This document shows positions 18,170 to 19,165 of a DNA stretch of 28,400 nucleotides, in pieces. Both the position numbers and the translations under genes were made by a program. This DNA is from a virus, in the IMG/VR virus record IMGVR_UViG_3300032087_002115, positions 1-28,400 of that record; one strand, 5' to 3'. Every line of letters begins with the position of its first letter. The stretch's first letter is position 1. The notes beneath the pieces are model-generated. The model did no database searches. It was not told the DNA's origin and saw only the letters and a list, made by a program, of their open reading frames with translations.

Positions 18170-18292
18170 AAACCCCTCGTTTTTTCTGGAATGCTCTTTA
18201 TGCTGACATAGAATGGGTATGCAAGGCAACAGCAAAAATTTTATTGACCGATAGAATCACTTGTGCAAAAGTTTCCACAAAGGAGAAGCGCA
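18170..18292. promoter_or_regulatory. Divergent promoter region
   Basis: This 123-base gap lies between the minus-strand primase operon and the plus-strand methyltransferase/polymerase operon, so it must serve both. AT-rich tracts and a TTGACC are present, but I cannot pick a convincing -35/-10 pair on either strand. Confidence 0.4.
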
Positions 18293-19165
18293 TTGTTAAA
18301 TACGTTGGATTTATTTGCGGGCATTGGCGGGTTTGCTTTTGGCCTTGAACGCACGGGTGGCTTTAAGACAGCCGCTTTTTGCGAAATCGATGAAAAAGCC
18401 CAAATGGTTTTGAAAAAGCATTGGCCGAATATACCTGTGTTTGGCGACGTAACAACTTTGACAAAGGAGAAATTAGATGAGCAAGGAATTACAATCGACA
18501 TCATTACAGGGGGATTCCCTTGCCAAGACATTAGCTTCGCAGGACGCGGCGCGGGACTTGAAGGAAAACGTAGCGGCCTCTGGTTCGAGTTCGCAAGGCT
18601 CATCGAAGAAATCCAGCCGAAGTACGCGATCATCGAAAACGTCTCAGCCCTTCGGTTTAGAGGATTGGATCAAGTTCTCTGGTCGCTCGCTGAGATCGGG
18701 TACGATGCGGAGTGGCATTGTATACCCGCAAAAGCCATTGGTGCGCCTCACCAGAGGGACCGCATCTGGATCATCGCGTACCCGCAAGGGCGAAAACTGG
18801 ACAACACCGAGTGCGTCGGATGCTACGAGAAGCGGGACGATCACGAAGAATATGACGGGGATAAGTTTAGCCCAACAAGTCAACACTCCTCATCTATGGC
18901 CGACACCAGCAGCTCACGAGGGTCGTCTTGGCTATCAACGGAGAGACACGGGCAAGAAGGGGACTCAAAAATCACTTACCACCTTGGTTATAGACTCTCT
19001 AGGTGGGAGGGAGGCCACATCTGGTCAACTGAACCCGACGTGGGTAGAGTGGCTAATGGGGTTCCCCGTCGGGTGGACAGACTTAAACAATTAGGTAACG
19101 CTGTCGTTCCGCAAATTCCTCAACTTATCGGAGAGGCAATTCTTGAGGTTGAACGTAATTTATGA
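18293..19165 (+). CDS. dcm: C5-cytosine DNA methyltransferase
   Basis: The 290-residue enzyme transfers a methyl group from S-adenosylmethionine to cytosine C5. Motif I is DLFAGIGGF (6-14), motif IV GGFPCQDIS (73-81, catalytic C77), motif VI ENV (115-117), motif VIII QRDRIWI (154-160) and motif X LGNAVVPQ (267-274). The short stretch between VIII and IX is the target recognition region. A TTG start at 18293 has AAAGGAG seven bases upstream; a GTG at 18263 does not. It would protect phage DNA from host restriction. It overlaps the polymerase start by ATGA and contains a second gene in another frame. Confidence 0.92.
   Translation: MLNTLDLFAGIGGFAFGLERTGGFKTAAFCEIDEKAQMVLKKHWPNIPVFGDVTTLTKEKLDEQGITIDIITGGFPCQDISFAGRGAGLEGKRSGLWFEFARLIEEIQPKYAIIENVSALRFRGLDQVLWSLAEIGYDAEWHCIPAKAIGAPHQRDRIWIIAYPQGRKLDNTECVGCYEKRDDHEEYDGDKFSPTSQHSSSMADTSSSRGSSWLSTERHGQEGDSKITYHLGYRLSRWEGGHIWSTEPDVGRVANGVPRRVDRLKQLGNAVVPQIPQLIGEAILEVERNL
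18477..19094 (+). CDS. Gene embedded in the methyltransferase in another frame
   Basis: This 205-residue frame lies wholly inside the methyltransferase gene, shifted by one base. It begins with ATG seven bases after a perfect AAAGGAG. Its sequence is not random: MSKELQSTSLQGDSLAKTL at the start, then SGTMRSGIVYPQKPL, repeated TP segments (NWTTPSASDATRSG and LWPTPAAHEGRLGY), and a C-terminal LNPTWVEWLMGFPVGWTDL. I recognise this pattern from phage proteins annotated beside C5-methyltransferases, function unknown. Its conserved end is the other-frame reading of the methyltransferase segment just before motif X. It may assist or regulate the methyltransferase. Translation is not proven. Confidence 0.6.
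   Translation: MSKELQSTSLQGDSLAKTLASQDAARDLKENVAASGSSSQGSSKKSSRSTRSSKTSQPFGLEDWIKFSGRSLRSGTMRSGIVYPQKPLVRLTRGTASGSSRTRKGENWTTPSASDATRSGTITKNMTGISLAQQVNTPHLWPTPAAHEGRLGYQRRDTGKKGTQKSLTTLVIDSLGGREATSGQLNPTWVEWLMGFPVGWTDLNN

Follow-up and report, generated by a model that had tools for sequence, protein, structure and literature searches.

A predicted C5-cytosine DNA methyltransferase divided between two overlapping frames of one viral locus

Described split methyltransferases and the locus in the window

The small ORF of the C5-cytosine methyltransferase M.EcoHK31I reportedly lies inside the large ORF, in another frame. M.EcoHK31I (YGGCCR) consists of two polypeptides, the large one containing motifs I-VIII and X and the small one motif IX, and its predicted target recognition region (TRD) was assigned to the large subunit (PMC3404938). 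M.AquI is interrupted between motifs VIII and IX, with the catalytic and recognition halves carried on two polypeptides (PMC3404938).

We analysed a 28.4-kb virus record (the whole stretch is called the window here), which encodes an SU10-like portal and major capsid protein, a D5-type primase-helicase, a family A DNA polymerase and an Enc34-type ssDNA-binding protein. Between the primase gene and the polymerase gene lies a gene for a C5-methyltransferase of 290 aa (PF00145), which we call alpha (18293-19165, plus strand, as are all features of the window below); it has a TTG start and a TGA stop, the latter overlapping the ATG of the polymerase gene at 19162. The TTG at 18293-18295, 7 nt after a Shine-Dalgarno sequence (AAAGGAG, 18279-18285), is apparently used rather than an upstream GTG at 18263. 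The initial annotation had reported a 205-codon ORF within this gene, one base out of register with it, opening seven bases after a perfect AAAGGAG. The coordinates (18477-19094) and the codon count were correct, the AAAGGAG was found at 18463-18469 within alpha, and the motifs quoted from the product are present in its translation. This nested +1-frame gene, beta (ATG start, TAG stop, 205 aa), encodes a predicted specificity subunit, and alpha and beta have an identical AAAGGAG at an identical 7-nt spacing from their start codons. An Rfam scan of the window returned no RNA family, and none of the ten larger window genes that were scanned was recognised as encoding a restriction enzyme. The predicted methyltransferase likely serves the phage as an orphan modification enzyme that would shield its DNA from restriction.

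We then compared alpha with known methyltransferases. PF00145 matched alpha with E 4.8e-50 over residues 3-184 only (profile positions 2-169 of 324), reaching no further than motif VIII, and the large-domain motifs include the PCQ nucleophile motif, ENV and HQRDRIW (QRxRxW type); alpha thus has the C5-methyltransferase catalytic domain (PF00145, motifs I-VIII). Foldseek matched the alpha model to the large domain of M.HhaI only (E 5.8e-15), and the alpha profile aligned to M.HhaI 12-180 and then jumped to 297-320, past the TRD and motif IX, the motif X part (297-320) scoring low on its own. In the AlphaFold model, residues 1-173 (18293-18811, motifs I-VIII) were confident, with pLDDT mostly >84, as were the C-terminal helices, while residues 174-253 (18812-19051) formed a disordered linker with pLDDT mostly <50. 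The C-terminal segment (19085-19162) contains motif X (DRLKQLGNAVVPQ...), a weak profile match, and a C-terminal helix, with helices predicted at 260-289. Read in the other frame, the DNA of the linker encodes the variable region of beta and the beginning of motif IX. A small domain with TRD and motif IX was found within the alpha polypeptide neither in the profile alignment nor in the AlphaFold model. As judged from these profiles and the model, alpha consists of motifs I-VIII and X and has no small domain of its own.

The Ser-rich N-terminal half of beta (18477-18785), which contains SGTMRSGIVYP, lies over alpha motifs IV-VIII and is predicted to be unstructured. It is followed by a variable region with WTTP and WPTP segments (18798-19028), a putative target recognition region by its profile and by its position between motifs VIII and IX, which is as in the monomer of Gordonia phage Leonard, and by motif IX, LNPTWVEWLMGFPVGWTDL (19029-19085). 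The family consensus of the C-terminus is LNPxWVEWLMGFPxGWTDL, and it aligned without gaps to the canonical motif IX of monomeric C5-methyltransferases (RLTPRECERLQGFPDDYTLV; hhalign E 6e-5), while beta matched an actinophage TRD-IX-X segment with E 8.8e-12 (hhalign). Beta therefore carries the motif IX that alpha lacks, together with a variable region that may act in recognition. The initial annotation had regarded this C-terminus as the alternate-frame reading of the segment before motif X, which proved mistaken or incomplete; it is motif IX and the variable region of a methyltransferase. Its suggestion that beta may be an old overprinted gene suits the N-terminal half over motifs IV-VIII, and the alpha linker, and does not suit the functional C-terminal half. 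When predicted alone, beta showed no fold (pLDDT 57), as expected of a domain half, and its best-predicted part was a helix at 187-194. Searches with beta in Pfam, NCBIfam and PADLOC returned nothing, and the beta profile matched no solved structure in the PDB.

The locus resembles M.EcoHK31I in that alpha has motifs I-VIII and X without IX, motif IX lies on the small polypeptide, and the small ORF, here and in relatives, lies inside the large one and is read in another frame. It differs in that the variable region appears on beta and the matching alpha segment is an unconstrained, disordered linker, although the large-subunit placement in M.EcoHK31I is itself a prediction; it also differs in having no restriction enzyme partner recognised among the ten genes scanned. 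That the locus works like M.EcoHK31I would be the best explanation, the likeness being drawn from published motif layout. In M.AquI the small subunit holds motifs IX and X, whereas here motif X belongs to alpha and the small gene lies inside the large one; the M.AquI arrangement is absent from the window and was found in four relatives (L247, L249, L253 and L255). Monomeric enzymes of the M.HhaI type (PF00145) share the catalytic domain and motif X of alpha and the motif IX of beta, but the small domain here lies in a different frame and on a separate polypeptide.

Stop avoidance and codon-level constraint in the nested frame

Taken alone, this gene yielded a +1 run of at least 205 codons in 137 of 20,000 synonymous-codon shuffles (0.7%), and the single sequence is therefore only suggestive. 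We fetched homologues with the alpha protein only, and the +1 frame was open over the same stretch in all 63 non-redundant sequences, with a median longest run of 213 codons in +1 versus 47 in +2; +1 stops occurred only in the first 60 or so alpha codons and at the gene end. Expected stop numbers were obtained by shuffling synonymous codons within each gene, keeping protein and codon usage fixed. The results showed that the overlaps of 105 loci contained 3 stops in +1 against 603.5 expected, whereas the +2 control contained 1274 against 1231.5, and that the subset fetched without reference to beta contained 2 +1 stops against 204.1. A distant set of 79 loci, fetched by alpha motifs I, IV and X, had 15 +1 stops in alpha codons 62-165 against 278.1 expected, and 73 of these loci were clean. 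At L392, L396, L418 and L420 the +1 stops were found only in the N-terminal half of beta, and the TRD-IX part stayed open. A Shine-Dalgarno core with a start codon was present at alpha codons 44-66 in 77 of the 105 loci, compared with a shuffled mean of 27.6.

Fourfold-site divergence was measured in 28 independent pairs. In the alpha frame it was 0.363 upstream of the overlap, 0.195 across motifs IV-VIII, 0.073 across the beta variable region and 0.059 across the last 26 beta codons, and it returned to 0.366 after the beta stop. In the beta frame, the same five segments gave 0.066, 0.100, 0.279, 0.199 and 0.098 in order, and the increase (0.279, 0.199) was confined to the segments that encode the TRD and motif IX of beta. 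Over the C-terminal overlap, divergence was fastest at the first codon position of alpha, which is the third of beta, and the ratio of alpha position 3 to position 1 was 3.1 outside, 0.43 in the motif IX segment and 3.3 after the overlap. These fourfold-site and codon-position patterns indicate that alpha dominates over motifs IV-VIII and beta over the last third. In the C-terminal third of beta, the beta frame is dominant and the alpha reading is loosely constrained, with amino acid differences of 0.425 per codon in the alpha linker. In two distant relatives (L016 and L031), the last 66-75 residues of beta were 80-81% identical, while alpha overall was 38-44% identical.

The nested +1 frame is a real gene, and both frames are under selection. 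Synonymous-site constraint per frame and frequent stops in homologues were the checks named in the initial annotation; in our homologues constraint was found in both frames and +1 stops were strongly depleted. Its proposal that a second protein is encoded within the methyltransferase gene is borne out as to coding by stop avoidance and codon constraint, with translation of beta the probable consequence, and its suggestion that the annotated phage family is no annotation artefact agrees with the codon-level constraint on the beta frame in many homologues.

A split enzyme, its bridging relatives and the alternatives

We propose, with a probability of about 0.85, that the same DNA encodes, in two frames, both polypeptides of a split C5-cytosine DNA methyltransferase, alpha and beta. 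The main-frame product, alpha, would form the large domain, which holds motifs I-VIII and X, binds AdoMet and performs catalysis. Beta would be translated in the +1 frame, with initiation at alpha codon 62 directed by a ribosome-binding site of its own, and would supply motif IX and the putative recognition region. On association with alpha, beta would form the small domain contacting the DNA target, and the rebuilt two-domain heterodimer may then methylate DNA.

Relatives with other layouts were compared with the locus. In Gordonia phage Leonard (L248), a single frame holds motifs I-VIII, then a variable region like that of beta together with motif IX, and finally motif X. In L247, L253, L255 and L249, alpha ends after motif VIII and is followed by an overlapping second gene with the TRD, IX and X; phages with this AquI-like layout are Mycobacterium phages Ovechkin and Twister, Arthrobacter phage RedFox and Gordonia phage GordTnk2. 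Sequence comparison showed homology between the beta module and the TRD-IX region that monomeric and split relatives carry in frame. In a quick, unrooted tree of catalytic domains, Leonard, Ovechkin, Twister and RedFox formed one starred clade adjoining a nested-type sequence, and from its place in this tree the Leonard monomer may be secondary. No case of beta without alpha was seen, all 80 bacterial-genome loci carrying both; this co-occurrence, together with the predicted inability of beta to fold by itself, fits a role as obligate partner.

Frame changes were also observed in individual relatives: motif X falls within the beta frame in L232, as do the N-terminal alpha motifs in L183. In Mycobacterium phage Ochi17 (L083), the methyltransferase is split by a frame change into the annotated gp73 and gp74, and a beta-like frame is still open at 2369-2737.

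Passive similarity does occur in overlapping frames, and an alpha that is conserved, with codon usage that happens to avoid +1 stops, could in principle keep the second frame open and similar, a run of this length being reached in 0.7% of shuffles of this gene alone. The chance of this is negligible, because 3 stops were observed against 603 expected with codon usage and protein fixed and with +2 as expected, synonymous divergence drops in the overlap and recovers beyond it, and the beta end is strongly conserved between relatives whose alpha proteins have diverged (L016 and L031); the stop and fourfold-site tests rule it out. The same layout would also result if a monomeric methyltransferase were decaying after two compensating frameshifts, which is hardly credible when the layout recurs in hundreds of loci and in about 15 bacterial phyla with purifying selection on both frames, and conservation of both frames rules out a decayed monomer.

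Programmed ribosomal frameshifting, with a +1 shift after motif VIII giving an alpha-TRD-IX fusion and no free beta, would agree with the in-frame TRD-IX of the L248 monomer and with the swapped frames of L183 and L232. It needs no open +1 frame upstream of the slip site, yet over motifs IV-VIII, beginning near alpha codon 60, the frame is kept open, and motif X could be reached only by a second shift back. We consider it very unlikely and rejected it on the open +1 frame upstream of any useful slip site and on the enrichment of Shine-Dalgarno and start codons at alpha codons 44-66 (77 of 105 against 27.6). Beta could instead be an independent overprinted accessory protein, such as a regulator or anti-restriction factor, and no methyltransferase subunit. 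Its N-terminal half is plainly an overprint, and a related nested gene, beta2, lies within methyltransferases whose own TRD and motif IX are in frame, which shows that this family does include nested +1 genes with another role. We nevertheless regard this as very unlikely, since beta ends in the motif IX that is absent from alpha, the same module stands between motifs VIII and X of L248 and also in the split enzymes, and alpha is without its own small domain.

A second nested family and the spread of the arrangement

We found a second nested +1 gene, beta2, inside monomeric phage C5-methyltransferases that have the TRD and motif IX in frame. Beta2, which shows stop avoidance and synonymous constraint, occurs at L256 (1613-2089), L257 (1547-2071) and L441 (1719-2213), and also in L263-L281 and L282-L360. 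Its C-terminus reads SLSDILETGDVPQRYFLSAKACAGILRRAEKRGKxLP, with the variable form SLSDILE...YFLSxKACxGILRRAxxRGKxLP. Over motifs IV-VIII (codons 62-165), 67 of 68 loci fetched with the monomer alpha contained no +1 stop, and the set had 1 +1 stop against 186.4 expected, compared with 301 against 238.6 in +2. In beta2 hosts, alpha fourfold divergence was 0.46 outside the overlap, dropped to 0.25 and 0.144 within it and came back to 0.37-0.45 beyond it. Beta2 matches phrog_16143, and phage P7, which is related to P1, has it in its dam/dmt gene. Because beta2 has no motif IX, the split-enzyme explanation does not cover it. We think it fairly probable that nested +1 coding is ancient and general among phage-type C5-methyltransferase genes, with beta a specificity subunit and beta2 a separate accessory protein in complete enzymes, that of P7 dam/dmt included. 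In Mycobacterium phage Thibault, a C-terminal remnant of beta2 is annotated as its own gene, gp104 (L442, 1432-1677), which adjoins an HNH endonuclease gene, and the methyltransferase region is annotated in pieces (gp102, gp105).

Fetching bacterial-genome loci with the beta profile gave 80, and each of them had the nested form; they belong to about 15 phyla, mostly Pseudomonadota and Bacillota. Because their selection relied on the motif WVEWLMG, the count shows that beta was not found alone and is no measure of how frequent the layout is among C5-methyltransferases. At least 600 matches were listed among viral contigs, beta-profile matches were found in 12 of 190 sampled genomes from the class of one of the 80 loci, and a plasmid search gave two weak matches only. 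One Roseovarius assembly contained five copies of the same nested locus (L188-L191 with L187), perhaps repeated prophages.

Beta matches PHROG families annotated as DNA methyltransferase or unknown (phrog_1008, E 1.3e-20; phrog_26627, E 7.8e-9; and 31772), which indicates that phage annotators have repeatedly met this ORF, but the entries make no mention of nesting, motif IX or a subunit role. Alpha alone is annotated in most records, the nested ORF alone in Porphyromonas phage018a, and both ORFs as DNA cytosine methyltransferase in Paenibacillus phage Bloom, a P. larvae phage; Acinetobacter phage ABMM1 also has the nested layout. Two DNA-cytosine methyltransferases are listed, with no further remark, in a genome paper on P. 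larvae phages (PMC6070908), and an out-of-frame HNH insertion reported in a phage methylase (PMC11855218) is different from the nested arrangement here. No description of the nested arrangement in phage methyltransferases, of its breadth or of the beta2 family was found in the literature searched, which included few subscription journals.

If confirmed, alpha and beta would rank among the long same-strand nested gene pairs with the widest distribution in bacteria and phages, and both products could be assigned a function as two halves of one enzyme. The arrangement would explain phage proteins annotated as fragmentary or hypothetical methyltransferases, and many single-ORF phage methyltransferases, when expressed, would lack the recognition half. 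It would also provide a natural system for how overlapping frames share constraint, and beta2 would be an unexplained, testable gene in well-studied phages.
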